Shown: one piece after another, positions 1-18,687 of the stretch
Layout: each line of letters begins with the position of its first letter
How positions within the stretch are numbered: position 1 is the first letter of the stretch
Origin: Bifidobacterium pullorum subsp. gallinarum
GTDB taxonomy: Bacteria > Actinomycetota > Actinomycetes > Actinomycetales > Bifidobacteriaceae
NCBI RefSeq assembly: GCF_000741215.1
Contig: NZ_JGYX01000002.1
Coordinates: 1-64,000 of the forward strand
Direction: 5' to 3'
Length of the DNA: 64,000 nt
Translations under genes and position numbers: made by a program
The notes under the pieces: generated by a model
Databases searched by the model: none
The model's input: only the letters and a program-made list of their open reading frames with translations
What the model was told of the DNA's origin: nothing

Positions 1-313
1 GCTGCACGATCTGGTACGAACCATCGAACCCCTGCTCCTCGACCAGCCTGTCATACACGCGCCTGGCCGTATGCCGCTGCTTGCGCGGCATGAACCGGTC
101 CGCCTCCAACCACTTGCCGATCAACGGCTTGTACGGGTCGAGCTTCGAGACCGCCGCAGGACGGGCCGGGGGCTCCGGCGAGCAGTCCTCCAACTGCGCG
201 TACTTGCGCACCGTCTGTCTGGACACCCCGACCTCCCTCGATATGCGACGCCAGGACACACCCCTCGCGTCGAGAATCCTGATACGTTGTTGTATGGGCG
301 TTGGCACAGTCAT
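1..313 (-). CDS. IS21-family transposase IstA, N-terminal part (runs off left edge)
   Basis: Reading the reverse strand from an ATG at 313 gives 104 codons open to the window edge. The translation starts MTVPTPIQQRIRILDARG and continues with a helix-turn-helix (VSWRRISREVGVSRQTVRKY, about residues 19-38), the usual N-terminus of IstA transposases. A further stretch (LDPYKPLIGKWLEADRFMPR) is also typical of IS21 IstA. A ribosome site (GGAAAGG) lies just upstream of the ATG. The catalytic DDE domain and the IstB partner would lie left of the window. The element end seems to lie near 484, where it abuts a truncated IS30-type gene. Confidence 0.8.
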   Translation of the reverse strand, partial: MTVPTPIQQRIRILDARGVSWRRISREVGVSRQTVRKYAQLEDCSPEPPARPAAVSKLDPYKPLIGKWLEADRFMPRKQRHTARRVYDRLVEEQGFDGSYQIVQ

Positions 314-486
314 GTCCTTTCCTTCCCGAGATACCTGCGAATGGTTGCCTCAACTCGGGAATCTAACAAGACCGGACGGGCCAACGCCTCTCCACGCCGA
401 CAACACGATCACATGGTCAACTTTTCACCGGTAACACGGCCAACAAACCCGCGATAAACCGGCACACAAACCATTAAACAAATACA
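314..486. other. Non-coding end of the IS21-type element
   Basis: This stretch upstream of istA has no convincing gene. It probably holds the terminal repeats of the IS21-type element; around 415-440 is a GGTCAACTTTTCACCGGTAAC segment that looks like such an end sequence. The exact end was inferred from where IS30-type coding similarity begins (about 487), not from a proven inverted repeat. Confidence 0.4.
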
Positions 487-974
487 CCGTGATAGGCGCG
501 GCCCCCTCGCGCGTGTGCATCGACACGCAGGTCGAGCGCAAAAGCCGCGGACCGTTCGCGCGCCTGGTCCCCGACAAGAGCGCCATGGCCACCGCGCGCG
601 CCGAATACGAGATCCACGGGGACCTGCCGCCCCGGGCGCGCATCGACCGGACCTGGGACAACGGGACCGAGGCCTCCTGCCACCAGCTGGTCGACGAGGC
701 CCTGGGCATGCCCGCCTACTTCGCCGACCCCTACTCCAGCTGGCAGCGCGGCACCAACGAGAACAGGAACGGCAGGATCCGCCGGTACCTGCCCAAGAAA
801 ACCCCGTTCGACGACCTGACCCAGGCCGAGCTCGACGCGATCGTCAAGGAGACCGACGACACCCCCATGAAACAGCTCGAATACAAAACACCCAACGAGG
901 CATGGGACGAGGAGACCAGCAGACTACAATCTAAAACCACCAACCCAAGCACAAGCGTTGCACTTACAAGTTGA
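487..974 (+). pseudogene. IS30-family transposase, C-terminal remnant
   Basis: The translation has IS30 hallmarks: the second catalytic aspartate in TWDNGTE, the block YFADPYSSWQRGTNENRNG with the catalytic glutamate, then IRRYLPKKTPFDDLTQAEL and a C-terminal KTPNEAW. The first catalytic Asp and the N-terminal HTH are missing because similarity starts abruptly at about 487, beside the IS21-type element. The simplest reading is that the IS21-type element inserted in the gene or deleted its front. The remnant ends near a GTTGCACTTACAAGTTGAATCC sequence (954-975) that resembles an IS30-type terminal repeat. It cannot encode a working transposase. Confidence 0.85.
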
Positions 975-978
975 ATCC
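951..978. repeat. Probable right terminal repeat of the IS30-type element
   Basis: The sequence GCGTTGCACTTACAAGTTGA with its flanks has the look of IS30-family terminal inverted repeats and lies just past the transposase remnant. It ends only about 15 bases before the start codon of the next gene, so any native promoter of that gene has been replaced by element sequence. Confidence 0.45.
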
Positions 979-994
979 GGGCGGAGAAGGAAGC

Positions 995-2839
995 ATGAAG
1001 AAGATCAACGGAACACCGAAGAACCTCAAGGAGCTACTTCAAAACACGAAGTATTCCATCCACTATTACCAGCGCGAGTACGCCTGGCAACTCAAGCAGA
1101 TTCAAGAGCTCGTCGACGACCTGACCGACGAGTTCCTGATCTACTACGACCCCACCCACGAGCGCAAGGACGTCGCGCAGTACGGCGTGTACTTCATGGG
1201 CAGCGTCGTCCTCGCTGGGCGCGAGAACGCCATCATCGACGGACAGCAGCGCCTCTCTTCGCTGTCGCTCCTGCTCATCTACCTGCGCAGGCGCCTGCTC
1301 GAGGTGGGCATGACAATCGCGACCGTGGACCAGATGATCTATTCGGAGAGCTTCGGCACCGCATCGTTCAACATCTCGGTCGAGGACCGCGAGCCGTGCC
1401 TGCAGGCGCTCAACGACGGCAAGAACTTCGACCCGGAGGGCTACGGCGAGAGTGTCAAGAACCTGTACGCCCGCTACCAGGACATCTGCGACCTGTTCCC
1501 CGAAGAGATAGACGATGCGGCGCTTCCGTACTTCGCCGACTGGCTGACCGAGAAGGTCTACTTCATCGAGATCGTGACCGAGACCGAGCAGGACGCCCAC
1601 AAAGTGTTCGTGTCGATGAACGACCGCGGATTAAGCCTCACTTCCGCCGAGATGCTCAAGGGCTACCTTCTCTCCGAAGTGGCCGACGACAAGCGGCGCG
1701 AAAAGCTCAACGACGCCTGGAAGGCCAAGATGCTCTCCTTGAAGGAGCTCGGCAAGGGCGAAGAGGAGGACTGCATCAAGGCGTGGCTGCGCGCCAAATA
1801 TGCCGAGAGCATCCGCGAGAACAAGAAGGGAGCGACGCCCGAGGACTTCGACCTCATTGGCGGCAGCTTCCACAAATGGGTGCGCGACGAGCATGCGCGG
1901 CTGGGCCTCAACTCGTCAGACGAGTTCGAGCAGTTCATCGAGGAGTTCTGCAAGTTCGCGGACATCTACATACGCCTCAAGCACTGGGAATGGACGTTCG
2001 ACGAGAAGCAGCCGTACCTCTACTACAACGCGGCGCTCAGCTTCACCCTGCAGTCGCAGCTCTGCCTCGCGCCCATTCGAGCCGAAGATTTGGGCGAGAC
2101 AATCGACCGGAAGATCCTGCTCGTATCTCGCTTCATCGACATCCTCATCTACACGAGGGCCATCAACTACCGGAGCATGGACTACTCGACCATAAAGTAC
2201 GCGATGTTCCAGTTGACGAAGCGCATCCGCAACCTTGACGTGCCCGAGCTGGCAACCCAGCTCGGCAAGGAGGTCGCCGACCTCGGCATGAGCATCGAAA
2301 ACGCCTGGGACGACTTTAGGCTTAACTTCTACACCAAGAAGTACATCCGCCACATGCTCGCGCGCATCACCGACTACGTGGAGCGCGGGTGCGACCAGCC
2401 CGGCCACTATCTGGAGTATGTAGCCGTGAAGAGCAAGCGGCCCTTCGAGGTGGAGCACATCATCACTGACCACTTCGAATGGTATCAGGACGAGTACGGC
2501 AGCCGTGAGGAGTTCGAAGCAACGAGGAACAGGCCTGGCAACCTGCTCCTGCTCGATAAATCGACGAACGCATCGATCAACGACGACCGCTACCCGGACA
2601 AGTTGCCCGTCTACGGCAGCGAGAAGGGCAACGTGCTCTCGGCGGCGCTCGTGGCTGCCTCGTACCAGCACAACCCGCGTTTCCTCAAGTTCATGGGCGA
2701 GACGGGCTTCGAGTTCAAGGCTTACGAGACCTTCGGGCGCAACGAGATCGCCGAGCGATCCGGGCTCGTGGGGTCGCTCGTGCTCGCGCTCTGGACGCCA
2801 GACTTCAACCAGATCGCGGCCAACGGACTTTCCAGCTAG
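995..2839 (+). CDS. DUF262/DUF1524 (GmrSD-like) nuclease-type defence protein
   Basis: 614 aa from the ATG at 995, chosen because GGAGAAGGA lies just before it; an in-frame upstream start at 971 would be inside IS30 sequence. The N-terminal DUF262 domain (about 10-230) has YSIHYYQREYAW, the NTP-binding IIDGQQRLSSL motif near residue 80 and SMNDRGLSLTSAEMLKGYLL. The C-terminal DUF1524 HNH-like nuclease domain (about 480-600) has FEVEHIITDHF and RNRPGNLLLLDKSTNAS. This domain pair is known from GmrSD type IV restriction of modified DNA and from proteins carried in type I restriction loci. Its position 26 bases before hsdR suggests an operon. The exact target is unknown. Confidence 0.8.
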   Translation: MKKINGTPKNLKELLQNTKYSIHYYQREYAWQLKQIQELVDDLTDEFLIYYDPTHERKDVAQYGVYFMGSVVLAGRENAIIDGQQRLSSLSLLLIYLRRRLLEVGMTIATVDQMIYSESFGTASFNISVEDREPCLQALNDGKNFDPEGYGESVKNLYARYQDICDLFPEEIDDAALPYFADWLTEKVYFIEIVTETEQDAHKVFVSMNDRGLSLTSAEMLKGYLLSEVADDKRREKLNDAWKAKMLSLKELGKGEEEDCIKAWLRAKYAESIRENKKGATPEDFDLIGGSFHKWVRDEHARLGLNSSDEFEQFIEEFCKFADIYIRLKHWEWTFDEKQPYLYYNAALSFTLQSQLCLAPIRAEDLGETIDRKILLVSRFIDILIYTRAINYRSMDYSTIKYAMFQLTKRIRNLDVPELATQLGKEVADLGMSIENAWDDFRLNFYTKKYIRHMLARITDYVERGCDQPGHYLEYVAVKSKRPFEVEHIITDHFEWYQDEYGSREEFEATRNRPGNLLLLDKSTNASINDDRYPDKLPVYGSEKGNVLSAALVAASYQHNPRFLKFMGETGFEFKAYETFGRNEIAERSGLVGSLVLALWTPDFNQIAANGLSS

Positions 2840-2865
2840 TTGACAGCTACACCAGGAGATGCGTC

Positions 2866-5800
2866 ATGGAAGACACCTTCGACAAAACGCCCCAAGTGAC
2901 GGTCGAGTATTACTCCACCTCCATGCCGAAGACGGCGGAGAAGAACTTCGAGGGCGACGTGGAGTCAATACTCGGCCTTGCCGGATGGAGGACATTCGAC
3001 AGCAACGCGACGGCGCAAGCCGACTACGACCGCAAACTCGCGTTCAAGGTGGAATCCCTCGTCGGCTTCGTTCGCGAGACACAGCCTGAGGAATGGGCCA
3101 AGATCGTAAGCCTGTACGGCTCTCACACGCAAGAGCGTTTCATCAAGCGCCTGTGCGACGAGCTGGAGCCCCATGACGAGCGCGGCGGCGTGGTCAACGT
3201 GCTGCGACACGGCATCCGCATGGCACCGGGAGCGCAATTCCGCCTGTGTTATTTCCGGCCAGTGACGGAGAAGAACCCCGACGCCTGGAAGCGCTACCGC
3301 GCCAACCGCTTCGAGGTGGTGCGGCAGCTGCGCTACGGCACGATGCCCGACGATCTCAACAACTCCGTGGACATCGTGCTCTTCCTGAACGGCATACCGG
3401 TCGTGACCATGGAGCTGAAGAACAACCTCACCGGACAGCGCATCGAGCACGCCGTGAAGCAGTACAAGACCGACAGAAGCCCCAAGGAGCTGCTGTTCAA
3501 GGCGAACCGGCGGGCGATCGTGCACTTCGCGCTGGACTCCGAGACCGTGGAAATGTGCACCTGGCTCGCGAACGGGAAGTCGTTCTTCCTGCCCTTCAAC
3601 CGGGGCAACGGCAAGAACGGCGCGGGCAACCCACCCAACCCGCACGGCTACCGCACCGAGTACCTGTACCGCGAGATCCTGGCGCCCGACAGCTTGCTCG
3701 ACATCATCCAGCGGTTCGTTCGCGTGGAATACGACCCCGACACGCCCGCGATGAAGAAGATCATCTTCCCGCGCTTCCACCAGCTCGACGCCGTGCGCAA
3801 GCTGGTGGCGGACGCCAAGGCGAGCGGAGCCGGCAAGAGCTACCTGATCCAGCACTCGGCGGGCAGCGGCAAGTCGAACTCCATCGCGTGGCTGGCGCAC
3901 CATCTGCAGTCGCTGCATGACGCCGATGACAATCCCGTCTTCGACACCGTGGTTATTCTCACCGACCGGCGCAACCTCGACGCACAGCTCTCGGAGACGA
4001 TCGACGCCGTGGAGCACAAGCGCGTCGTGGTCGTGCGCATCCGCGAGGAAGACGGCTCGGCCGGCCTTCGCGAGGCTCTGAACTCAGGCGCGCAGATCAT
4101 CACCTCGACCATCCAGAAGTTCCCCTACATCTGCTCCGAGACGAAAGTCTCCGGCAGGAAGTTCGCCGTCATCATCGACGAGGCGCACAGCTCGCAGTCC
4201 GGCAAGGCCAACGCAAAGATGAAGCTGGCGCTCATAGACCGCGACCTGGACCCGGACGAGCCGTGGGACGACGAGGACGAGCTCGCCAAGGAGATGAAGG
4301 CGCAGGGGACGATACCGAACCTGAGCTTCTTCGCGTTCACGGCCACGCCGAAGGCGGCCACCCTCGAGGTGTTCGGCACGCGCGACGAGCTTTGCAAGCG
4401 TGATGAGAGCGGCATCCTCATCCCGCGACCCTTCCACCTATACAGCATGAAGCAGGCCATCGACGAGGGCTTCATCCTGGACGTGCTGGAGAACTACACC
4501 TGCTTCGAGAGCTACTTCAAACTGGTGAAGACCATCGCAGACGACCCCAAGTACAAGGAGATGAAGGCAAACCGCGCACTTATGGGGATTGTCGACTGGA
4601 ACCCAACCATGATCGGACAGAAGGCGCAGATCATCGTTGAGCACTTCATGAACGACGTGGAGGGCGTGCTGGACGGCAAGGCCAAGGCCATGGTCGTCAC
4701 TTGGAGCCGGCCTATGGCCTACCGGCTCTACCTTGCGATGGCCGAATACGTAAAGCAGCAGAAGTACGCCTGCCAGATCATGGTGGCGTTCTCCGGCAAG
4801 CTCGACGTGGACGGCGAGGAGGTCACCGAGACGAAGGTGAACGGCGTGCCCGAGACCCGCACCGCCGAGCTCTTCGACTCGGACGAGAAGCGCATCATCG
4901 TGTGCGCCAACAAGTTCCAGACCGGTTTCGATCAGCCCAAGCTCTGCGCGATGTACGTAGACAAGATGCTCACCGGCGTAGCAGCCGTACAAACCTTGAG
5001 CCGCCTGAACCGCACATGCTCCATACCCGGCAAGCGCACCTTCGTAGTTGACTTCGCCAACACGTGGGACACCATACGGGCGAGCTTCTCTGATTATTAC
5101 GAGGCAACCCAGCTCGACGCCGCGACCGACCCCGACGTCATCTACAACCTGCAGGAGCGGCTGGACGGCTACCACGTGTACGAATACTCGAAGGTAGAGG
5201 CCATCGCCTCCGTCTACTTCGACGAGCCCGACCCGAGCGCGGTGCTGCGCAAGATCGAGCCAAAGCTGCAGCCAGCGGTGGACCGCTGGCAGGCGCTCGA
5301 CGACACGCCCAAGCGCGAGTTCAAGGCGCTGCTGCGCAAGTTCCTGCGCTCGTACTCGTTCATCACGCAGATGATCAGCCTGGGCGACGAGGACCTGCAC
5401 CGGCTGTTCGTCTACGCCGGGTTCCTGGTTAAGAAGCTCTTCCTGGACACCGGCAGCACGCCCGACCTGCGCGACAAGGTGGAGCTGGAGTACCTTCGCA
5501 TCGAGGACAAGGGCACCCAGGCCATAAAGCTGGAGAGCACCGAACTGCACAACGGCGGGGCGAACGCGGGCGTCTCAAAGGAGGAGGAAGAGGAGCGCCT
5601 GAGCGTGCTCATCGACCACCTGAACGAGGCGTTCGGCGCAGAGTGGACCGAGGCGGACAAGATCATCAAGGCTTGCGCCGACAAGATCTGCGAGGACGAG
5701 GAGTTCGTCGCCAAGGCACGCACCAACAGCATGGGCGACCTGCGGGCGATCTTCGGCGACGTGATGATGAGGGCGCTCGCCGCCATCCTCGCCGACAGCG

Positions 5801-5907
5801 CCGACATGTACGAGAAGTTCAGCGAGAACCCTGACGCCTACATGAGAATCATGGATAACGACTTGCTGCCCATCGTGTACCGGCGCTGCAACTCGGATGA
5901 GGAATAG
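2866..5907 (+). CDS. hsdR: Type I restriction endonuclease subunit R (HsdR), orphan
   Basis: 1013 aa, normal HsdR length. The PD-(D/E)XK nuclease is visible as D169 (SVDIVLFLNG) and E183-LK (VVTMELKN). The SF2 translocase follows: Walker A HSAGSGKS (330-337), DEAH box at 438-441, motif III FTATPK near 491, and QTLSRLNRT for motif VI. HsdR cleaves DNA after ATP-driven translocation but in known systems needs HsdM and HsdS for recognition and methylation. Neither is seen anywhere in the window; IS elements close the left side of the locus, so they may have been deleted or lie further left. An AGGAGATG ribosome site precedes the ATG. Confidence 0.9.
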   Translation: MEDTFDKTPQVTVEYYSTSMPKTAEKNFEGDVESILGLAGWRTFDSNATAQADYDRKLAFKVESLVGFVRETQPEEWAKIVSLYGSHTQERFIKRLCDELEPHDERGGVVNVLRHGIRMAPGAQFRLCYFRPVTEKNPDAWKRYRANRFEVVRQLRYGTMPDDLNNSVDIVLFLNGIPVVTMELKNNLTGQRIEHAVKQYKTDRSPKELLFKANRRAIVHFALDSETVEMCTWLANGKSFFLPFNRGNGKNGAGNPPNPHGYRTEYLYREILAPDSLLDIIQRFVRVEYDPDTPAMKKIIFPRFHQLDAVRKLVADAKASGAGKSYLIQHSAGSGKSNSIAWLAHHLQSLHDADDNPVFDTVVILTDRRNLDAQLSETIDAVEHKRVVVVRIREEDGSAGLREALNSGAQIITSTIQKFPYICSETKVSGRKFAVIIDEAHSSQSGKANAKMKLALIDRDLDPDEPWDDEDELAKEMKAQGTIPNLSFFAFTATPKAATLEVFGTRDELCKRDESGILIPRPFHLYSMKQAIDEGFILDVLENYTCFESYFKLVKTIADDPKYKEMKANRALMGIVDWNPTMIGQKAQIIVEHFMNDVEGVLDGKAKAMVVTWSRPMAYRLYLAMAEYVKQQKYACQIMVAFSGKLDVDGEEVTETKVNGVPETRTAELFDSDEKRIIVCANKFQTGFDQPKLCAMYVDKMLTGVAAVQTLSRLNRTCSIPGKRTFVVDFANTWDTIRASFSDYYEATQLDAATDPDVIYNLQERLDGYHVYEYSKVEAIASVYFDEPDPSAVLRKIEPKLQPAVDRWQALDDTPKREFKALLRKFLRSYSFITQMISLGDEDLHRLFVYAGFLVKKLFLDTGSTPDLRDKVELEYLRIEDKGTQAIKLESTELHNGGANAGVSKEEEEERLSVLIDHLNEAFGAEWTEADKIIKACADKICEDEEFVAKARTNSMGDLRAIFGDVMMRALAAILADSADMYEKFSENPDAYMRIMDNDLLPIVYRRCNSDEE

Positions 5908-5914
5908 GAGCCGA

Positions 5915-7105
5915 ATGAACTGCTTCAACGGCGCATACGCTTTCCAAGCTTTCCCCGCCCATCTCAAGGCCATGAAGAAGAAGATCGCTGAGCTGAGTGC
6001 CAAAGAAATGGACAGCACAGACAGGGATGCTTGGGTTGACTACTTCTGCTCGGAATACGAGATTGACCTCGTGGTCATGTATCCCGAATCAAAGGACATC
6101 GACATCTCAGAGAAGACTGTGCAGGAATACAACACTTGGTATCAAATCAGCAGGGACGAGCCAAAGTTCTTCGACAGACCGGGTTATAAGGTCACGTGCA
6201 AAGTCCCGTTCTCCGGCGACCCAGGTCTCTTCGAGCTGCAGCCAAACCCGCACACCATGGGCGCCTACGAGGTTGACCGCATCATAAAACCGGGCAAGGA
6301 CGGCATCGGATACCTCGTATTGTCATACGAGCTGTTGGAGAGGGATGCAAGCGCGGAAGGCATCGAAGCCCATTTCTCGCAAGAGATCGGTGCGATACAC
6401 ACAGAGGTGGAGAAAGTCAACACCGAGGCCCGCCGATTCAACGAGACGATACGCGGCGAAGTGGAGAAGGCAATTGACGAGCGCATACGACAAGTTGATA
6501 AGTTTGCCAGGATACGTCAAGGCCTGAACATACCCCTCAACAGGGTTGAAGGAGCGCCGATGGCCCGCCCCGTTCCACTGCCCAAGAGGAAGCTGTGCTT
6601 TAGCAAGCCGGTACCGAACACAAGAGGCGAAGTAAGCTGCAGTATCACCGATGTGGACTACGAGGCCATTAATGCAGTGATCAGCGACTGCGGGGCCCTC
6701 ATGGAGCAGGCACCCTCTTCTTTCTCGAGCCTCGACGAAGAGCAGCTGCGTGACTACCTAAGAGGAATGCTTGGGACGCATTACGACAACGTGACGGGAG
6801 AAACCTTCCGCAACAGGGGCAAGACGGACATCCATATCCCCTTTGGCGACCACGTCGCGTACATCGCCGAATGCAAGATATGGCATGGGAAGAAGGCATT
6901 CCTATCGGCCATCGAACAGCTCTTCTCCTATTCCACCTGGCGAGACACGAAGGTCAGCGTCATCATCTTCAACAAGGAGAACAAGAGCTTCGAGAACGTG
7001 TTGGAAAGCATTCAGGGTGCTCTCGACGAGCATGCCATTCGAGCCAGGAGCATTAAGCGGGGCAATGGTATTGCGAGATACAGAACGCCGAGGATGAACG
7101 CGTGA
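5915..7105 (+). CDS. PD-(D/E)XK nuclease-like protein of unknown function
   Basis: 396 aa from the ATG at 5915, which has AGGAG four bases upstream; an alternative ATG at 5897 overlaps the hsdR end. The first half is not recognised; residues about 150-210 are charged and helical (coiled-coil-like). The C-terminal third has a likely nuclease core: RGKTDIHI (D305), 13 residues, then AECKIW (E319, K321), a D-(E)xK arrangement as in Mrr-type and related enzymes. Its coupling to hsdR suggests a shared defence role, but it has no evident methylase or specificity partner. The nuclease assignment is inference from a short motif. Confidence 0.6.
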   Translation: MNCFNGAYAFQAFPAHLKAMKKKIAELSAKEMDSTDRDAWVDYFCSEYEIDLVVMYPESKDIDISEKTVQEYNTWYQISRDEPKFFDRPGYKVTCKVPFSGDPGLFELQPNPHTMGAYEVDRIIKPGKDGIGYLVLSYELLERDASAEGIEAHFSQEIGAIHTEVEKVNTEARRFNETIRGEVEKAIDERIRQVDKFARIRQGLNIPLNRVEGAPMARPVPLPKRKLCFSKPVPNTRGEVSCSITDVDYEAINAVISDCGALMEQAPSSFSSLDEEQLRDYLRGMLGTHYDNVTGETFRNRGKTDIHIPFGDHVAYIAECKIWHGKKAFLSAIEQLFSYSTWRDTKVSVIIFNKENKSFENVLESIQGALDEHAIRARSIKRGNGIARYRTPRMNA

Positions 7106-7165
7106 TGCATGTGACCGTACAGGCGTTCAACCTGCACGTTTAGCAAAGAGTCGAGGTACATCACA

Positions 7166-7519
7166 GTGGACAAGGCACAGGAACTTAGTAGCATTATCGG
7201 CGAGATTTACGAACTCACTAACAGACTCGAGGCGATGTATCCGGGAAGACACTTCACGCCAGATGGGCGGCTCGTTCAGATAAAGACGACGCAAAGGAAC
7301 TCGGTCGGTATCAGCGAAAAGCCTGACTATCTCATAGTCCTGCATATTGATGAAAACGGCAGGTTGGAGGAGATCTACAACGGTCCTGGCGAACGAGTAT
7401 GGAGCCTGTTCGAGGGCCGAAAACCACCCAAGAATGGGCAGTACCAGATTTCGCTTTCAAAGCTCAAGGAATTCGACAAGGGCGTACTCCCAGACGAAAA
7501 GATACCTGCTCTAAGCTAG
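7166..7519 (+). CDS. Small DUF6998-like protein, probably internally deleted
   Basis: 117 aa from a GTG at 7166 with a GAGGT ribosome site. The N-terminus (IGEIYELTNRLEAMYPGRHFTPDG) and C-terminus (RLVQIKTTQRNSVGIS, then VLHIDENGRLEEIYNGPG and KNGQYQISLSKL) both resemble DUF6998-type proteins as I remember them. Those relatives have about 35-45 residues between the two parts, with an IGE and a KGHDA-like motif; here the parts are joined directly at TPDG-RLVQIK. Such relatives contain a second DG(R/K)LV-type motif, so a deletion between short repeats could explain the join. Function unknown; it follows the nuclease genes on the same strand. Confidence 0.55.
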   Translation: MDKAQELSSIIGEIYELTNRLEAMYPGRHFTPDGRLVQIKTTQRNSVGISEKPDYLIVLHIDENGRLEEIYNGPGERVWSLFEGRKPPKNGQYQISLSKLKEFDKGVLPDEKIPALS

Positions 7520-7570
7520 GCAAACCCGCAACTTGTGACACGCTGCGACGATGTCCGTACCGGTAAAGGT

Positions 7571-7595
7571 GCGGGCATTGTTCGTCTCTGCCCGC
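7571..7595 (+). terminator. Hairpin between the defence genes and the phage genes
   Basis: Arms GCGGGCA (7571-7577) and TGCCCGC (7589-7595) with an 11-base loop form a 7-bp stem. There is no T-tract, so it may be a weak terminator or a leader structure of the phage scaffold gene. Confidence 0.35.
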
Positions 7596-7622
7596 CTGGA
7601 CCAACGAAAGGCAGGCAGGAAC

Positions 7623-8150
7623 ATGAACGGTGAGACCAATGGCGGCCAGAAAGCCGCGCAGGGTGCGCAGGACGCGTCGCAACAACAGGGCCAGGAGCAG
7701 CAGGAAACGCAGCAGGGCCAGTCGCAAGTAGGCGGCGAGACCCCCGACTACGAGAAGCAGATTGCCGAGCGCGACGAGAAGATCGCCTCGCTCGAGGCAC
7801 AGGTGGCCGAGGCGGCGAAGAACGCCGAGACGGCCGAGCAGCTGCGCGGCGAAATCGCCGAGCTCAAGGCCCAGGGCGAGAGCGACCGCATCGACTTTAA
7901 GTTGCAGCTCGCGGGCGTGCGCAACGTGAAGGCGGCACGCGCACTCCTCTCCGACCACGACAACGACGTGGACAAGCTGAAAGAGGCCGAGCCCTGGCTC
8001 TTCGAGGCCACAGGCAAGCACGCCAAGGACGGAAGCGCCGGCTCCGGCACGACCGGGCTTCCCAACGCGGGCGCGGCTTCCGACGAGGGCAAGACGCTCA
8101 AGCACTGGCGCGAGATCGCGGGCCTCACCGACGACGACAAGAAGGAGTAA
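7623..8150 (+). CDS. Phage capsid scaffold protein (GP20-like)
   Basis: 175 aa from the ATG at 7623 (MNGETNGGQ), preceded by AGGCAGGAAC. It has a Gln/Gly-rich N-terminus, a long coiled coil (about 40-85: KQIAERDEKIASLEAQVAEAA), and RIDFKLQLAGVRNVKAARALL, typical of phage minor structural GP20/scaffold proteins. It lies three bases before the major capsid gene, the standard scaffold-capsid order. A scaffold guides procapsid assembly and is then lost. No portal or terminase gene precedes it, so it is part of a remnant. Confidence 0.75.
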   Translation: MNGETNGGQKAAQGAQDASQQQGQEQQETQQGQSQVGGETPDYEKQIAERDEKIASLEAQVAEAAKNAETAEQLRGEIAELKAQGESDRIDFKLQLAGVRNVKAARALLSDHDNDVDKLKEAEPWLFEATGKHAKDGSAGSGTTGLPNAGAASDEGKTLKHWREIAGLTDDDKKE

Positions 8151-8153
8151 GAC

Positions 8154-9194
8154 ATGCCTAGCAACAACATCGCATTCGCACGTAACTACACCTCGGTGAT
8201 CGACGAGGTGTACCAGAGGGCGTCCGTCTCGGGCGTGCTCAACTCCGGCCGCCGCATGGTCCGTGCCGGGCACAACGCCAAGGAGATCCTCATCCCGAAG
8301 ATCTCCGTCACGGGTCTCGGCGACTACACCCGCAACGTCGGCTACAAGACCGGCGCCATCACCTACGAGTTCGAGACCAAGACCTTCAACTACAATCGCG
8401 GCATCCGCCTGTTCGCCGACGTCATGGACGTGGAGGAGGCTGGCGTGAACGACTGCTTCGTGGAGGCAGGCGCCGAGCTGCAGCGCACGCAGGTGGCCCC
8501 GGAGGCAGACGCCTTTACCTTCGCGCAGATCGCCGGGCACACGGGCGTGACCACAGTCACCGAAAGCTACGCGAGCGCAGACGCCGAGGACATCCTGGAG
8601 GACCTGCGCACCGTGACCTCCGCCATGGACGAGAACCAGGTGACTCTGGGCAGCCGCATCCTGTTCATCACGCCCACGCTCAAGGGCGTCCTGGACGACT
8701 TCTCCTACGCGAACCCGAACCGCTCCAACCGCGTGCTCGAGCGCTTCTCGCGCATCGTGGAGGTGCCGCAGGTGCGCTTCTACACGGCCATCGACCTGCT
8801 CTCCGGCGACGATGACCAGTTCGGCTACCAGAAGCGCGCGGCTACCTACGAGCTGACCACGGACACCGAGGTCGACTCCGGCAAGACCTACTACACGCGC
8901 AGCGGCAGCGGCACCTCCGCGAGCCCCTACGTGTACACCGAGGTCGCGAGCCCGCAGAAGGCGAGCCTGGGCAGCTACTACGAGATGACCACCACGCCCG
9001 GTCTGGACATCAACTTCATGGTCGTGGAGCGCAGCGCGGTCATCAAGTTCGACAAGCACGTGGCGAGCCGCGTGTTCTCCCCGGACGAGCTCGAGGCGCT
9101 GGACAGCTACATGATGAAGTATCGCAAGTACGGCATCGTGGAGCTCTTCGACAACAAGCTCGACGGCGTGTACGTCTCGGCCTCCACGGAGTAA
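8154..9194 (+). CDS. Phage major capsid protein
   Basis: 346 aa. The start (ATG 8154) has AAGGAG upstream and follows the scaffold gene at once. The N-terminus (NNIAFARNYTSVIDEVYQRASVSGVL) and the central part (TKTFNYNRGIRLFADVMDVEEA) match the general pattern of tailed-phage coat proteins. About residues 220-270 form a Ser/Thr/Tyr-rich insertion (YELTTDTEVDSGKTYYTRSG) that looks like a surface-exposed domain. The frame is intact. With only a connector fragment behind it and no tail genes, it is unlikely to yield particles alone. Confidence 0.8.
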   Translation: MPSNNIAFARNYTSVIDEVYQRASVSGVLNSGRRMVRAGHNAKEILIPKISVTGLGDYTRNVGYKTGAITYEFETKTFNYNRGIRLFADVMDVEEAGVNDCFVEAGAELQRTQVAPEADAFTFAQIAGHTGVTTVTESYASADAEDILEDLRTVTSAMDENQVTLGSRILFITPTLKGVLDDFSYANPNRSNRVLERFSRIVEVPQVRFYTAIDLLSGDDDQFGYQKRAATYELTTDTEVDSGKTYYTRSGSGTSASPYVYTEVASPQKASLGSYYEMTTTPGLDINFMVVERSAVIKFDKHVASRVFSPDELEALDSYMMKYRKYGIVELFDNKLDGVYVSASTE

Positions 9195-9196
9195 CC

Positions 9197-10138
9197 GTGG
9201 CGTCCACCGTGACATACGAGTTCTACTCGCAGACCTACGGGGGCGGTCTCTCTGAGGCCGCCTTCGCGGCATCTCTTCCCATCGCGGACAGCCACGTGAA
9301 GTGGCTCTGCGCCGTGAAGGGAGCGACGACCACCTGCAACGTGTTCAAGCGGGCGGTGTGCGCGGCCGTGGACGCCTTCGCCGAGTACGGCGCGGGCGAG
9401 GTCGGCGGCTTCCAGATCGGCGAGTTCTCGGTCAAGAACTACGCGAGCCAGCAGACGACCGGCGAGGAGCTGGCGACGGCCGCCGCGCTGCGCGAGCTCG
9501 GGCTCTCGGGCATGGCGTTCACGGGGGGTGTGCTGACGAACCCCAACGCGGACAGCCGCACGTGGTTCTACGGGCACTTCTACGCGGACGGGCAGGCCGT
9601 GCTCACGGCCACCGCGACGCCGGACGCCACGCGCGAGCTTCTGGCCACGGGGCGGATCTGTGCCATCGGCAAGTACACGGGCATGGGCTTCACGCCCTGG
9701 GACAGCACGAACCGCCCGCAGCTCACGAGCGTGCACTTCGCGAGCGACATGGGCTCCTTCGCCGCCCTGAACCTGATCTACCTGTTCTACAGCTGCACGA
9801 ACCTGGCGACCGTCACGGGCCTCGGCAACCTGGCGAACGTATCCTCGATGCGCTACACGTTCAGCTCCTGCGCGGTGACGGTGCTGGACTTCCGGGGGTT
9901 CGACCCGTCCACGCTGACGGACCTGTTCTACTGCTTCTCTGGATGCAGCTCGCTCACGACGATCTACGCGGACAGCACGTGGGCGCTGCCGAGCTCTGGC
10001 ATCAGCGGCATGCAGTGCTTCTACAACTGCCGCTCGCTTGTCGGCGGCAACGGGACCGCATGGTCTAGCTCGAACACTGGATACACGTACATGAGGACCG
10101 ACCGGGCCGGGCAAGCAGGGTATCTGATTGCGGCCTAG
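9197..10138 (+). CDS. Chimeric phage protein: head-tail connector N-terminus fused to BspA-type repeats
   Basis: 313 aa from a GTG two bases after the capsid gene. Residues 1 to about 110 resemble a small head-tail connector (LSEAAFAASLPIADSHVKWL, CNVFKRAVCAAVDAFAEYG, GGFQIGEFSVKNY) that normally ends near MAFTG. From about 112 on the protein is of another kind: KYTGMGFTPWDS, TSVHFASDMGS, then repeats such as MRYTFSSC and LDFRGFDPSTLTDLFYCFSGC, which are DUF285/BspA-like 26-residue repeats found in surface and phage tail-tip proteins. The join lies at a run of six G (about 9524-9529). I infer an in-frame deletion that removed the whole tail module. Confidence 0.65.
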   Translation: MASTVTYEFYSQTYGGGLSEAAFAASLPIADSHVKWLCAVKGATTTCNVFKRAVCAAVDAFAEYGAGEVGGFQIGEFSVKNYASQQTTGEELATAAALRELGLSGMAFTGGVLTNPNADSRTWFYGHFYADGQAVLTATATPDATRELLATGRICAIGKYTGMGFTPWDSTNRPQLTSVHFASDMGSFAALNLIYLFYSCTNLATVTGLGNLANVSSMRYTFSSCAVTVLDFRGFDPSTLTDLFYCFSGCSSLTTIYADSTWALPSSGISGMQCFYNCRSLVGGNGTAWSSSNTGYTYMRTDRAGQAGYLIAA

Positions 10139-10602
10139 TGGATCTCATCACCTGCGGTCGTGGGGTGCTCATTCGCCTCTTTGCAGAGGCGAATGCCCTC
10201 GACCACATCTCGCGCGAATGCTTCTGGGATGTTCGAATCGTCATTCTCTGACCAGATCTTATGCCAACCCGTAAGATGCCCGAAGTCGTTGAAGTCGATG
10301 GTGGCTTCCCAAATGGATATACCGCTCTGCGACTTGACCTCAATGCCTACAACGAATCCATCGATGGAGGCCGACTTGATACGCGGGATACCCTTCTTGG
10401 CTTTGAGGACAATCTGCTCGAACTCCGCCTCTGACACGCCGTCATCGTATGAGGGTGGTGTTGAGCGCCGTTCCTCTTCAAGCTTGCGACGACGCTCCAT
10501 CTCCTCGCGGTACTCGGCCATTTTGCCAGGAATGGAGATAATGGTCTTCGGGATAAAGGTCACTACATCAAGGGCGACTTTCAGCGGGTTGAATCCTGGC
10601 AT
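10135..10602 (-). CDS. Hypothetical prophage cargo protein 1
   Basis: 155 aa from the ATG at 10602, chosen for the AAGGAG six bases upstream; a longer frame to 10647 would overlap its upstream neighbour. The N-terminus (MPGFNPLKVALDVVTFIPKTI) is hydrophobic and could be a short membrane anchor, followed by a charged helix (MAEYREEMERRRKLEEERR). The rest is not recognised. Its stop codon shares the CTAG with the stop of the converging chimeric phage gene. Being on the opposite strand within a prophage, it may be a cargo (moron) gene. Confidence 0.6.
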   Translation of the reverse strand: MPGFNPLKVALDVVTFIPKTIISIPGKMAEYREEMERRRKLEEERRSTPPSYDDGVSEAEFEQIVLKAKKGIPRIKSASIDGFVVGIEVKSQSGISIWEATIDFNDFGHLTGWHKIWSENDDSNIPEAFARDVVEGIRLCKEANEHPTTAGDEIH

Positions 10603-10612
10603 GGGTAACTCC

Positions 10613-11248
10613 TTAAGCAGCCTGCAGGATTCTCTGCTGCTCGCCAAGATAGTGTCTGAGGAGAATTACGTTGCCATACTCGCCAGCGTCTTCAACGGAA
10701 GGTGCCTCGCGCAGGGAAGCGCCATTGGCCGCCGCGAGTTTCTCGGTATAAGTGCGGAGCATGTCCGCCAACGTCTCAAGTTGTCCGCCGTCGAGATCGA
10801 GCGTGACGGTTTTTCCGTCTAGCCCCTCACGCAATCCGTCTACCTGCCGGATAATGCCCTCGAGGTCACCTTCGTTCAGGTTGCCGGCCTTGATGCTGTC
10901 CAAATACCTAGTCATAGCTTCATTGAACGCAACTGCATCTTCCGAAAGCTTCTTATCTGCGTCGTTCTTTTGCTTAGTGGTGAGCTTATATGCGACGACA
11001 CCGCCGATTGCCGCTACCGCCGCAATACCGATGCCTATGAGGGGATACTTGTACTGTTTGGCCATGGCGAGCGCCTTCTGGGCCATCTCTGCGCCCTCAG
11101 CTGCGTCAGGGAGATCGACCTCCTTGAGATGCTTTACTATGTGCCCCGAAGCATCCCTGACTACACCGCCGCGACGGATGAGCTCACCCGCATCGATCAA
11201 CAGCGCGATATCGTCTGGAACCTCCATAGCGACCTGTATCAATGCCAT
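10613..11248 (-). CDS. Hypothetical membrane-anchored prophage cargo protein 2
   Basis: 211 aa. One membrane segment is visible at about residues 70-88 (YPLIGIGIAAVAAIGGVVAYKL), followed by a charged, helical C-terminal part (KNDADKKLSEDAVAFNEAMTRY). The N-terminus (MALIQVAMEVPDDIALLIDAGELIRRGG) is not recognised. It lies 10 bases upstream of the next reverse-strand gene, so the two probably form a two-gene transcript. A lysogenic-conversion or exclusion role is possible but only inferred from position. Confidence 0.6.
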   Translation of the reverse strand: MALIQVAMEVPDDIALLIDAGELIRRGGVVRDASGHIVKHLKEVDLPDAAEGAEMAQKALAMAKQYKYPLIGIGIAAVAAIGGVVAYKLTTKQKNDADKKLSEDAVAFNEAMTRYLDSIKAGNLNEGDLEGIIRQVDGLREGLDGKTVTLDLDGGQLETLADMLRTYTEKLAAANGASLREAPSVEDAGEYGNVILLRHYLGEQQRILQAA

Positions 11249-11402
11249 GACGTGCTCTCCTCAATAAACAGACAACGTAATGCATCAATTCTACTAGAAA
11301 CAAGGCGAAACCGGATTAGCTGCCAGCTAACCCAGCTGACTTTGTGACGTGACACGACACTGCCTCTCGAGGACAACAGTCGATCCCGGGAGGCAGTTCT
11401 TT

Positions 11403-11620
11403 ATGGAGTCAATCATCGTCGCTTGCATCACGGGGGTGGTGACCCTCGTCGGGGTGATCCTCTCCAACTCGAAGAGCAGGGCCGTCATGGAGGTCAAGCT
11501 GGACGCCCTCACGGCAAAGGTCGAGAAGCACAACCAGGTCCTGGAGCGAACCTACCGGCTCGAACAGGACATGGCCGTCGCGAAGCACGACATCGAGGAG
11601 ATCAAGGGAAGGTGGCATGA
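11403..11620 (+). pseudogene. XhlA/holin-accessory-like phage protein, frameshifted end
   Basis: ATG 11403 has GGGAGG upstream. The product starts MESIIVACITGVVTLVGVIL, a membrane segment, then a coiled-coil tail (KLDALTAKVEKHNQVLERTYRLEQDMAVAKHDIEEI), the usual shape of small phage haemolysin XhlA-like or holin-associated proteins. In the observed frame it reads through into the next gene. One extra base near 11606 would restore an ending IKGKVA-stop at 11618-11620, just before the ATG of the holin at 11622. I therefore treat it as frameshifted. Confidence 0.55.
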
Positions 11621-11621
11621 G

Positions 11622-11860
11622 ATGAGCGAGTTCCTGGCAAGCAACGAGTGGCAGTGGAGGCTCCTGCGCACGATCGTGCAGGGCGTCTTGGGCGTGGTGA
11701 TCACCAACCTGGATTTGATCCTGGGCTGGTGCGTGCTCGACCCGAGCATGAGGGCACTCGTCGTAGCGCTGGTGATGGCAGTGCTGAGCCCATCATGGCG
11801 GCTCTCGGCGGAGGCGACGAGGAGATCGTCATCCCGAAGGGCGGCAGCCATGGGGCTTAA
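11622..11860 (+). pseudogene. Phage holin, frameshifted
   Basis: From ATG 11622 the product reads MSEFLASNEWQWRLLRTIVQ, then two membrane segments (GVLGVVITNLDLILGWCVL and ALVVALVMAVLSP). At about 11788-11793 (GAGCCCATC) the frame changes: the other frame continues PIMAALGGGDEEIVIPKGG to a TAA at 11858-11860, the natural holin end. In the actual frame the sequence runs on through nonsense (SWRLSAEATRRSSSRR) into the lysin. One missing C is the simplest cause. Holins form the membrane lesion that lets the endolysin out. Confidence 0.6.
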
Positions 11861-13492
11861 CGGCATCGACATCAGCTCCTGGCAGGAGGACCTGGTCGTC
11901 TCTGCGATGACCACGTGCGACTTCGTCATCGTGAAGGCGACCGGCGGCGCGGGCTACACCAACGAGTGCTTCCGCCGACATTGCGACGAGACCCTGGCGA
12001 CCGGCAAGCTGCTGGGCTGCTACCACTACGCGCGCGACCGGGGCTACGAGGGCTCAGCCGAGGCCGAGGCGGATCACTTCATCGCGGCGTTCAAGCCGTA
12101 CGTCGGCAAGGCGATCCCGTTCCTGGACTGGGAGGCGGACGCGCTGAACCTAGGTGTGGCGTGGGCCAAGAAGTGGTTTGACCGCGTCAGGGACAAGACC
12201 GGCGTGACGCCCGGCATCTACACGAGCAAGAGCGTGCTCTTCTCCTACGACTGGTCGAGCGTGGCCAAGACTTACCCGCTGTGGGTGGCGCAGTACCCCA
12301 ACTACGAGGAGACGGGCTTCTTATCCGAGCCATGGACCGACGGCTGGGACTTCGGGGCTTGGAAGGATCCTCTCATCTTCCAGTACACCGGCACGGGTCG
12401 CATCCCCGGATACGGCGGGCACCTGGACCTCGACCTCTTCTACGGCACCAAGGACGACTGGCGGGGGCGCTGCGCGGTTGTCGGCGCCTCCGCTGGCACG
12501 AGGGAGGCGGACACCGTGAGCATATCGAGGGCGAACGTGGCGGCGCAGATCATGGAACACCTCTGCACGTGCTCGGAGCATGGGTACTCGCAGCCAGGAC
12601 GGCATGGTACCTCTGGGCACTGCAACGTGAAGACCGACGCGGGCACGATCAAGGTGACCAAGGGCGACCGCGATTGCTCCAGTGCGGTGTGCGAGGCCTG
12701 GGAGCTGGCGCTGGCCGGCTCGGCATACGACGGCCTCATCACGCGCTACAACTGGACCGGCGGCATGAGAGAGATGTTCGTGGGCTCGGGGCTCTTCTCG
12801 TGGAAACCTGTATCGTTCATCGCGTCGCGCGGAGACATCTACCTCGACGAGGAGCACCACACGGCCATGTGCATCCGCAACGACGGGACGGCCGACCTCC
12901 TGGGCGAGTTCAGCATCAGCGAGACCGGCGGCATCGATGGCGAGCCGGGCGACCAGACCGGGCGCGAGAGCTGGGTCCACGACTACTATTCCGGCAGCTG
13001 GGACGGCATCCTCCACTACAACGGCAAGGCCGACGTGGGCAGCGAGTCAACCCCTACCGGCTCTGGTGCGCCCTCCGGCGACGTGTCAGAGCTTGCGGCG
13101 AGGGTCATCGCAGGCGATTTCGGCAATGGCGATGCTCGCAGGGCCGCGCTGGGCAGCCGGTACGACGAGGTCCAGGCGGAGGTCAATCGGATCCTGTCCG
13201 GCGGCTCTTCCTCTTCCTCCTACGACGTGGACGCCCTCGCGCGCCGCGTCATCGCCGGTGAGTTCGGGAACGGCGACGCCCGAAGCAGGCTCTGGGGTCG
13301 AAGTACTCGGCCGTGCAGAAGCGCGTGAACGAGATCCTCGGGGCCTCCGGCGCGAGCTCGACATCCATGGACGTCGACGAAATGGCCCGCGCCGTGATTC
13401 GTGGCGACTACGGCAACGGCGAGGAGCGGAAGCGGCGCCTGGGGTCGTACTATTCGATCGTGCAGCGGCGCGTGAACGAGATGCTGTCATGA
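11850..13492 (+). pseudogene. Phage endolysin: GH25 muramidase, second Cys/His domain and CW_7 repeats, frameshifted
   Basis: ATG 11850 overlaps the natural holin stop. Residues 1-200 are a GH25 muramidase (MGLNGIDISSWQ, DFVIVKATGG, CYHYARD, FLDWEAD, YTGTGRIPGYGGHLDLDLF). A second domain (about 225-390) has DCSSAVCEAW, a later HTAMC and a WxHDYY block, suggesting an NlpC/P60- or CHAP-like peptidase. Three CW_7-type wall-binding repeats follow (ARVIAGDFGNGDARR, RRVIAGEFGNGDAR, RAVIRGDYGNGEERK). The frame breaks inside the second repeat near 13281-13286; the other frame restores KQALGSKYSAVQKRVNEIL and the third repeat, ending at 13492. Only the last repeats would be lost from the protein. Confidence 0.75.
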
Positions 13493-13694: not shown

Positions 13695-14005
13695 CTAGCT
13701 GAGCGGTTCGAGCTCGCGGTACAGCGGGTCTCCGTCGCCCACAAGCACATCCCACCACCAGTCTGCTGTCTCAACTCCGGACTGGCAAAGCATGTCCAGA
13801 AGCTTGGCACGGGCCTCGGGCGGGAGCTGCTGGAAATCCTCGCGCATGGCGTCGAGCACCGCCTTGCTCGTGGCCATCATGTCGTTGCAGATTTCCTTCT
13901 TCTCATCCATGCTGTAGCTCTCCGGCGAGTAGAGGCAAAGATCCGCCCTAAGTAGGCCATGTCCTCGGCCTGGGTGAGTTCGGTCATCTTCGCTTCGTTG
14001 ATCAT
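13695..14005 (-). pseudogene. Small hypothetical phage protein, frameshifted
   Basis: ATG 14005 (MINEAKMTELTQAEDMAYLG) has GGAG upstream. The frame is lost near 13947-13952, after which the other frame continues LCLYSPESYSMDEKKEICNDMM and runs to a stop at 13695 (ending RELEPLS). One missing base would join both into a protein of about 103 aa. Alone, the second part can start at Met 13910 and give 71 aa. No known domain was recognised. Confidence 0.5.
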
Positions 14006-14052
14006 CTTTCTAATCTCCTCTCAGTGCCCAGCATCGCGAATGGTGGCGCTGG

Positions 14053-14072
14053 GGTGGTACGAATTCCGGTAC
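14053..14072. repeat. Short direct repeat near the island end
   Basis: GGTACGAAT occurs twice with three bases between (GGTACGAATTCCGGTACGAAT). It lies about 130 bases from the guaA 3' end. It could be a binding site for the recombination machinery of the element; this is only a position-based guess. Confidence 0.3.
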
Positions 14073-14106
14073 GAATAATCCCGAAAGGAGTGCCTTCTTT
14101 CGAAGC

Positions 14107-14141
14107 GAAGTGGTGCGCCGATTTCTCGAACGCACCACTTC
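14107..14141 (-). terminator. Hairpin downstream of guaA
   Basis: A perfect 11-bp inverted repeat, GAAGTGGTGCG (14107-14117) and CGCACCACTTC (14131-14141), with a 13-base loop, 60 bases past the guaA stop. There is no clear T-tract. It may end guaA transcription or belong to the integrated element. Confidence 0.5.
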
Positions 14142-14200
14142 TGACCTGCGGTTTTGTTGTGTTTCGGGGTGGAGTGTGAAATACCGTTTTGTCCCGAATT

Positions 14201-15763
<1,563 letters not shown>

Positions 15764-16209: not shown

Positions 16210-18687
16210 ATGACGAGTCCTGTTATTGGCACCCCTTGGAAGAAGCTGGACGCTCCGGTTTCCGAGGAAGCTCTCGAAGGCGTCGACAAGTACTGGCGCG
16301 CTTCGAACTATCTGTCCATCGGCCAGATTTATCTGCGCAGCAATCCGCTGATGAAGGAACCGTTCACTCGCAATGATGTGAAGCACCGTCTGGTGGGTCA
16401 CTGGGGCACCACCCCTGGCCTGAACTTCCTCATCGGCCACATCAACCGACTCATCGCCGATCACCAGCAGAACACCGTGATCATCATGGGTCCGGGCCAC
16501 GGCGGCCCCGCCGGCACCTCGCAGTCCTACCTGGACGGCACCTACACGGAGTACTTCCCGAACATCACCAAGGATGAGGCTGGCCTGCAGAAGTTCTTCC
16601 GCCAGTTCTCCTACCCGGGCGGCATTCCGTCCCACTACGCGCCGGAGACCCCGGGCTCGATCCACGAGGGTGGCGAGCTGGGCTACGCCCTGTCCCACGC
16701 CTACGGCGCCGTGATGAACAACCCGAGCCTGTTCGTGCCGGCCATCGTCGGCGACGGCGAGGCCGAGACCGGCCCGCTGGCCACCGGTTGGCAGTCCAAC
16801 AAGCTCATCAACCCGCGCACCGACGGCATCGTCCTGCCGATCCTGCACCTCAACGGCTACAAGATCGCCAACCCGACGATCCTGGCCCGCATCTCCGACG
16901 AAGAGCTGCACGAGTTCTTCCACGGCATGGGCTACCAGCCGTACGAGTTCGTCGCCGGCTTCGACGATGAGGATCACATGTCGATCCACCGCCGCTTCGC
17001 CGACCTGTTCGAGACCGTCTTCGACGAGATCTGCGACATCAAGGCCGCGGCCCAGACCGACGACATGACCCGTCCGTTCTACCCGATGATCATCTTCCGC
17101 ACCCCGAAGGGCTGGACCTGCCCGAAGTACATCGACGGCAAGAAGACCGAGGGTTCGTGGCGCTCCCATCAGGTGCCGCTGGCTTCCGCCCGCGATACCG
17201 AGGAGCACTTCCAGGTCCTCAAGAACTGGCTCGAGTCCTACAAGCCGGAGGAGCTGTTCGACGAGAACGGCGCCGTCAAGCCCGAGGTCACCGCGTTCAT
17301 GCCGACCGGCGAGCTGCGCATCGGCGAGAACCCGAACGCCAACGGCGGCCGCATCCGTGAGGATCTGGTCCTCCCGCCGCTGGACAACTACGAGGTCAAG
17401 GAAGTCGCCAAGTTCGGCCATGGCTGGGGCCAGCTCGAGGCCACCCGTCGCCTCGGCGTCTACACCCGCGACATCATCAAGCTGAACCCGGATTCGTTCC
17501 GTATCTTCGGACCGGACGAGACCGCTTCCAACCGTCTGCAGGCCGCCTACGAGGTGACCAACAAGCAGTGGGATGCCGGCTACCTGTCCGAGCTGACCGA
17601 CGAGCACATGGCCGTCACCGGCCAGGTCACCGAGCAGCTTTCCGAGCATCAGATGGAAGGCTTCATCGAGGGCTACCTGCTCACCGGCCGTCACGGCATC
17701 TGGAGCTCCTACGAGTCCTTCGTGCACGTGATCGACTCCATGCTGAACCAGCACGCGAAGTGGCTGGAGGCCACCGTCCGTGAGATCCCGTGGCGCAAGC
17801 CGATCTCCTCGATGAACCTCCTGGTCTCCTCGCACGTCTGGCGTCAGGATCACAACGGCTTCTCGCACCAGGATCCGGGTGTCACCTCCGTCCTGCTGAA
17901 CAAGACGTTCAACAACGACCATGTGGTGAACATCTACTTCCCGTGCGACTCCAACATGCTGCTGGCCGTCGCCGAGAAGTGCTACAAGTCCACCAACCAG
18001 ATCAACGCGATCATCGCCGGCAAGCAGCCGGCCGCCACCTGGATGACCCTGGACGAGGCTCGTGCCGAGCTCGAGAAGGGTGCCGCCGAGTGGAAGTGGG
18101 CCTCCACCGCCGCTTCGAACGACGAGGCTCAGATCGTGCTGGCCTGCGCCGGTGATGTCCCGACCCAGGAGATCATGGCCGCCGCCGACAAGCTGAACGA
18201 GATGGGCATCAAGTTCAAGGTCGTCAACGTGGTGGATCTCATCAAGCTGCAGTCCGCCAAGGAGAACGACGAGGCCCTGACCGACGAGGAGTTCGCTGAG
18301 ATCTTCACCGCCGACAAGCCGGTCCTGTTCGCCTACCACTCCTATGCGCACGACGTGCGTGGCCTGATCTTCGACCGTCCGAACCACGATAACTTCAACG
18401 TTCACGGCTACAAGGAGCAGGGCTCGACCACCACGCCGTTCGATATGGTCCGCGTCAACGACATCGATCGCTACGAGCTCGTCGCCGAGGCTCTGCGCAT
18501 GATCGACGCCGACAAGTACGCCGAGAAGATCGACGAGCTCGAGGCCTTCCGCACCGAAGCCTTCCAGTTCGCGGTCGACAACGGCTACGATCATCCGGAC
18601 TACACCGACTGGGTGTACTCGGATGTCAAGACCGACGTGCAGGGTGCCGTCACCGCCACCGCCGCCACCGCTGGCGACAACGAGTGA
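16210..18687 (+). CDS. xfp: Xylulose-5-phosphate/fructose-6-phosphate phosphoketolase
   Basis: 825 aa, the standard length in bifidobacteria. This thiamine-diphosphate enzyme is the key step of the bifid shunt: it splits xylulose-5-P or fructose-6-P with phosphate into acetyl-phosphate and glyceraldehyde-3-P or erythrose-4-P. Visible motifs are [21 protein letters not shown], the ThDP-binding [18 protein letters not shown], and [16 protein letters not shown] precedes the ATG. The start of the bifid shunt and both acetate-forming enzymes (pta, ackA) sit side by side here. A strong terminator follows, so xfp is probably transcribed alone. Confidence 0.98.

Follow-up and report, generated by a model that had tools for sequence, protein, structure and literature searches.

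Nuclease genes that stand together with a type I restriction gene, and with no methyltransferase or specificity gene, raise the question of whether they are what is left of a type I system or a set that works without methylation. We asked this question for a cluster of four genes near the start of a stretch of 64,000 nucleotides (the window), that is, bases 1-64000 of contig C2 in an assembly of 2.16 Mb that is 99.8% complete. Our reading, to which we give a probability of about 0.86, is that the cluster is the distal part of a phage-borne type I operon that has lost hsdM and hsdS at a nest of IS elements, and that its GmrSD enzyme perhaps acts alone. The cluster is real and nothing out of the ordinary, being a type I operon that lacks its modification half; its phage setting is more worth following.

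The four genes (gmrSD, hsdR, a PD-(D/E)XK-like gene and a DUF6998 gene) are tightly packed directly after IS remnants (Table 1). The original prediction that they follow one another on one strand is confirmed by the gene calls, the domain matches and the same order in relatives.

Table 1. Features of the left edge of the window, the four-gene cluster and the phage remnant behind it (positions in the window)
Feature	Positions	Strand	Description	Basis
IS21-family element, terminal part	1..486	-	istA start and outer end	100% copy at C2:514362-514841, matching end on C8
CCGTGAT	487..493	.	7-bp target-site duplication of the IS21 copy	also found beside the second IS21 end, where contig C1 begins
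IS30-family element, 3' part	487..981	+	transposase C-terminus	94-95% to IS30 copy on C4
gmrSD ribosome-binding region	982..994	+	point where homology to the intact relative L025 begins	alignment starts at window 982 = L025 5086
gmrSD	995..2839	+	single-chain GmrSD (DUF262 + DUF1524), 614 aa, intact	Pfam, PADLOC HEC-06, 94% to L025 protein, motifs
hsdR	2866..5907	+	type I restriction subunit, 1013 aa, intact	Pfam HSDR_N/SWI2_SNF2, PADLOC REase_I, motifs
PD-(D/E)XK-like protein (PADLOC PDC-S54)	5897..7105	+	402 aa	PADLOC match, motif
DUF6998 gene	7166..7519	+	102-bp (34-codon) in-frame internal deletion near 7257-7266 versus L024/L025	Pfam 6e-32
Phage head scaffolding protein	7551..8150	+		PF06810 (just below cut-off), phrog_194
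Phage major capsid protein	8154..9194	+		phrog_422 E=5e-66; up to 98% in IMG/VR relatives
Chimaeric ORF	9197..10138	+	head-tail adaptor N-terminus fused to distal gene	alignment to L086
Phage endolysin	11349..13328	+		phrog_291 E=3e-60

Both halves of GmrSD are recognised by Pfam (GmrSD_N, E = 2e-29; GmrSD_C, E = 2e-10), with PF03235 (DUF262, GmrS) and PF07510 (DUF1524, GmrD) above the cut-off, and the GmrSD motifs are all present: QR at 26-27, DGQQR at 82-86, FxxxN at 205-209, H488, N516 and N525/N529. HsdR likewise has both its nuclease and its SF2 translocase parts, as seen from the Pfam domains (HSDR_N, 3e-15; SWI2_SNF2, 1e-27; T1R_D3-like) and from the motifs (nuclease D169 and E183-x-K185, Walker A at 333, DEAH at 438). 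The third protein has no match in Pfam, but it matches PADLOC PDC-S54 over nearly its full length (E = 2e-108, 361.8 bits), and its motif D311...E325-x-K327 is invariant across nine relatives; on these two grounds we would class it as PD-(D/E)XK-like. No mention of PDC-S54 was found in the literature that we searched. A 1-bp deletion in a G run near position 7058 has shifted the last 13 codons of this gene, and the native C-terminus (about 26 residues) is lost. The DUF6998 domain, which in the relative L024 is matched at 2-136 of 136, is incomplete here, with the 34 codons missing from its inside. These last two genes are accessory genes, and the distal end of the operon is decaying.

Close relatives were sought with the third protein as query in about 85,000 genomes, which gave three loci (L024, L025 and L026). 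Since close homologues stand in the same order in other genomes, with 92% DNA identity over the shared part in the closest relative L025, the four-gene cluster is not a product of chance. L025, from an Atopobiaceae MAG, has the order hsdM-hsdS-gmrSD-hsdR-PDDEXK-DUF6998. In L024 (Coriobacteriaceae MAG) an AbiJ_NTD4 gene (PADLOC PDC-S32, positions 6042-6956) is found at the hsdS-hsdR position instead of gmrSD, L026 has neither of the two, and in the viral contig L065 (hsdM-hsdS-hsdR-PDDEXK) the gmrSD slot is empty. All four of these loci carry hsdM and hsdS directly upstream. Furthermore, a strong HsdR match (35-46% identity) occurs in 61 other genomes of the 396 in the order, and hsdM and hsdS lie upstream in each of the 20 distant HsdR loci for which the flanks were fetched. 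The original prediction had proposed to look at intact relatives for constant partners; hsdM and hsdS are such partners, and gmrSD, PDDEXK and DUF6998 are variable. In the plasmid collection, the PD-(D/E)XK protein has only distant relatives (below 60%), and the phage collection gave nothing useful for the whole four-gene set.

Two further observations concern these relatives. AbiJ_NTD4 and gmrSD, being found at one position, look like interchangeable accessory genes within the operon. The hsdR gene of L025 has an in-frame stop at positions 8221-8223, and this copy may be modification-only plus GmrSD.

Could the four genes be a self-standing, modification-dependent set, in which GmrSD senses, HsdR translocates and the PD-(D/E)XK protein cuts, and which never needed hsdM and hsdS? 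In favour of such a set are the open frames of all four genes, the purifying selection on gmrSD and hsdR among the sequences sampled, and the listing of PDC-S54 as a candidate defence protein in PADLOC. However, the relatives always have hsdM and hsdS, their gmrSD slot is variable as described above, relatives of PDC-S54 are also found in quite different neighbourhoods (L027-L037, L044), and both PDC-S54 and DUF6998 are damaged here. We therefore regard a set of this kind as very improbable. The suggestion that all four genes work without methylation is not supported; only GmrSD would be expected to act alone.

We then have to ask where hsdM and hsdS went. The window starts at base 1 of C2, inside an IS21 copy, so its left side is an assembly break. 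The IS30 element in the window is 79% identical to IS30 copies of Bifidobacterium longum, and its 5' part is found on contig C1 (positions 1030-1476 and 3934-4181), split by a second IS21-family copy. Past the outer IS30 end, C1 carries an MFS transporter gene. From the 7-bp duplication and the complementary parts of the IS30 we infer that C1 and C2 join at this point. Homology to L025 begins at window position 982, only 13 bases before the start of gmrSD, and the IS30 ends at 981. The IS elements thus stand directly before the first gene, as had been noticed at the outset, with the refinement that the left side is also a contig end inside IS21. We looked for a target duplication at the outer ends of the IS30 and found no clear one, which would fit deletion or recombination.

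The type I operon might also be intact and merely interrupted, with hsdM and hsdS beyond the insertions, given that the window opens at a contig end inside IS21 and the left side is out of view. On the other hand, C1, once joined through the 7-bp duplication, gives the rest of the IS30 and then the MFS transporter; the test set beforehand was to look for hsdM and hsdS directly left of the IS elements, and they are absent there. Two complete type I systems occur in the genome, one on C7 and the other midway along C2, and each has an hsdR of its own. A third hsdM or hsdS did not turn up in a protein search of the assembly, and the only match in the genome to the hsdM-hsdS DNA of L025 was 46 bp at 83%; note that two small contigs (2.7 and 1.7 kb) appear as N and that the assembly lacks about 1 kb from the inside of the IS21. 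With the assembly 99.8% complete, we find a merely interrupted operon hardly credible. Of the type I subunits, HsdR is present, and HsdM and HsdS are absent here though present in the relatives: there are none in the window, and none in the assembled genome that belong to the operon, in agreement with the original prediction. As far as the assembled sequence goes, hsdM and hsdS are gone from the genome and not merely separated from the cluster by IS elements.

Least credible is that HsdR persists because one of the resident type I systems uses it as a shared subunit: it is intact, it gives no sign of relaxed selection, and HsdM-HsdS pairs exist on C7 and C2, but each resident pair has its own HsdR, and we rejected this model on the 21% identity of these two proteins to the HsdR of the window. 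Subunit exchange, a subject treated in PMC12707154, defines type I families, and the 21% identity of the HsdRs together with the 26% identity of the L025 HsdM to the resident HsdMs makes cross-complementation unlikely.

The codon changes in hsdR that are specific to the window comprise 67 synonymous and 17 replacement changes, compared with 62:19 in L025 and 115:37 in L024. We see no sign of relaxed selection in these counts, so hsdM and hsdS were lost only recently or HsdR has retained some function. The PD-(D/E)XK gene has 11 replacement and 7 synonymous changes in the window versus 17:56 in L025 (p = 0.004). We considered relaxed selection on this gene and rejected it; the excess of replacements probably comes mostly from the 13 frameshifted codons. 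As a separate observation, window positions 2866-7105 look like a recombination mosaic: hsdR has a dS of 0.28 to L025 versus 0.46 to L024, whereas the PD-(D/E)XK gene has the opposite affinity (0.07 to L024 versus 0.37 to L025).

Taken in this way, the first alternative of the original prediction, loss of the modification half of a type I system through IS activity, is supported: hsdM and hsdS are constant in the relatives, and the homology breaks off at the IS30 end, from which junction the role of the IS elements is read. The operon hsdM-hsdS-gmrSD-hsdR-PDDEXK-DUF6998 would have come in with the phage whose remnant still follows it. The likeliest route of loss would be that IS30 caused a deletion or that IS30 copies recombined, and two IS21-family elements would have inserted into the IS30; hsdM and hsdS would thereby have gone and an IS30 copy would have come to abut the ribosome-binding site of gmrSD. 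We infer the mode of loss, since the IS30 shows no clear target duplication, and a sister strain that has hsdMS at the same site was not seen either. A promoter of gmrSD was looked for and none was identified.

If anything of the operon works, GmrSD would remain as a stand-alone type IV enzyme. It would use NTP through its DUF262 part and cut modified phage DNA (e.g. with glucosylated hydroxymethylcytosine) with the His-Me nuclease of DUF1524, and it would leave unmodified host DNA alone. HsdR depends on HsdM and HsdS for its recruitment to DNA; with no M2S complex present, it should be inert. Since type I restriction requires R2M2S (PMC12707154) and GmrSD enzymes need no type I subunits to act on modified DNA (PMC11411939, PMC4619093), the surviving activity is most likely type IV restriction by GmrSD. 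With all its motifs present, GmrSD is probably a working type IV enzyme; HsdR is an orphan. The locus clearly exemplifies a composite type I/type IV operon that has lost its self-marking half and kept intact the part that needs no methylation for its safety. To annotate the cluster as a new defence system free of methylation would be a mistake, since an operon of a known kind has here been partly deleted.

GmrSD homologues are common in type I loci, and some of them act as type IV systems (PMC4619093, PMC11411939). The tgvAB genes of V. cholerae VPI-2 and RloF of C. jejuni share with our locus a GmrSD-family gene between hsdS and hsdR, an arrangement that is complete in L025. Unlike tgvAB, which is two genes, the protein here is a single chain; hsdM and hsdS are missing, and two more genes follow hsdR. 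Eco94GmrSD, BrxU and HEC-06 also have DUF262 and DUF1524 in one chain, with the QR, DGQQR, FxxxN and His-Me residues; HEC-06 is the best PADLOC match of our GmrSD. The likeness to PDC-S54 is nearly full-length, and the window copy differs in its C-terminal frameshift and in being part of a type I operon.

What follows the cluster are phage head genes, and the scaffold gene, or a piece of it, also follows the operon in L024, L025, L026 and L065. Window positions 7533-9537 match 9374-11383 of the phage locus L086, and 9521-10134 match 16504-17117, which amounts to a deletion of about 5.1 kb of tail genes with the junction at 9521-9537. The prophage is defective. Phage homology stops at 13957, some 240 bp short of the 3' end of guaA, which lies on the reverse strand (13957-14201), and the 3' end of guaA is a common integration site of mobile elements. 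The capsid gene is found in none of the 188 other genomes of the family Bifidobacteriaceae. In a sample of 396 genomes of the phylum it occurs in six others, five of them in one family and none in the order or class of the window. In the Atopobiaceae MAG that holds L025 the capsid is 97% identical, and the range is 97-98% when the viral contig is included. The operon and the phage remnant (982-13957) look alien to the family of the genome, and probably reflect a transfer between classes of Actinomycetota, from Coriobacteriia.

To see what else such phages carry at this place, we turn to 24 IMG/VR loci that share the capsid (L086-L109). Where the portal gene is in view, its distance upstream of the scaffold gene is 7-9 kb (L091, L092, L097, L101, L102); it is about 6 kb in L121, and L025 has a fragment of the portal gene at about 11 kb. 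A PADLOC scan, covering 17 loci and one or two upstream proteins in each, gave a family match upstream of the scaffold gene in 14. The matches belong to type I (L089, L093, L106), type III (L088, L103, L108) and type II or IIG systems (L086, L091, L095, L096, L097, L102), to GmrSD-like proteins (L091, L100) and to a PglX/HmaB-like methyltransferase (L107); in L094, L101 and L105 the scanned proteins have no PADLOC match. In Eggerthella phage PMBT5 the same interval, 6 kb long, has a Lar-like restriction alleviation gene among its contents. The cargo is not always defence: L120 has genes of surface-polysaccharide type in the slot, as read from its sequence.

We find, then, what is expected of a hotspot, namely the same flanking phage genes with different cargo in related phages, mostly of another class. 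The interval between portal and scaffold is a probable cargo slot inside the head-gene module of this capsid-defined prophage family (window 7551-9537; L086-L109, L119-L125), and its cargo may protect the lysogen. We lean towards the view that Coriobacteriia-type siphophages keep a portal-scaffold slot of 6-11 kb which is refilled with complete defence systems of many types, and that the cargo in the window passed into another class of Actinomycetota and then decayed to GmrSD, the single component able to act on its own. We found no paper describing this slot in a literature coverage that is incomplete. Prophage defence hotspots as such are already known: P2-like phages of E. coli and P4-like satellites also carry variable anti-phage genes at a fixed place in the phage genome (PMC9122126), whereas here the phages are Coriobacteriia-type siphophages and the place is between the portal and scaffold genes. 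New defence genes of gut actinobacteria may be sought in this phage family just before the scaffold gene, and slot genes that match no known family are included among the candidates. One observation by eye from L119 (G772) may be added, in which an AAA/OLD-like ATPase and a UvrD-like helicase form a Gabija-like pair (7487-10614) directly upstream of the scaffold gene.
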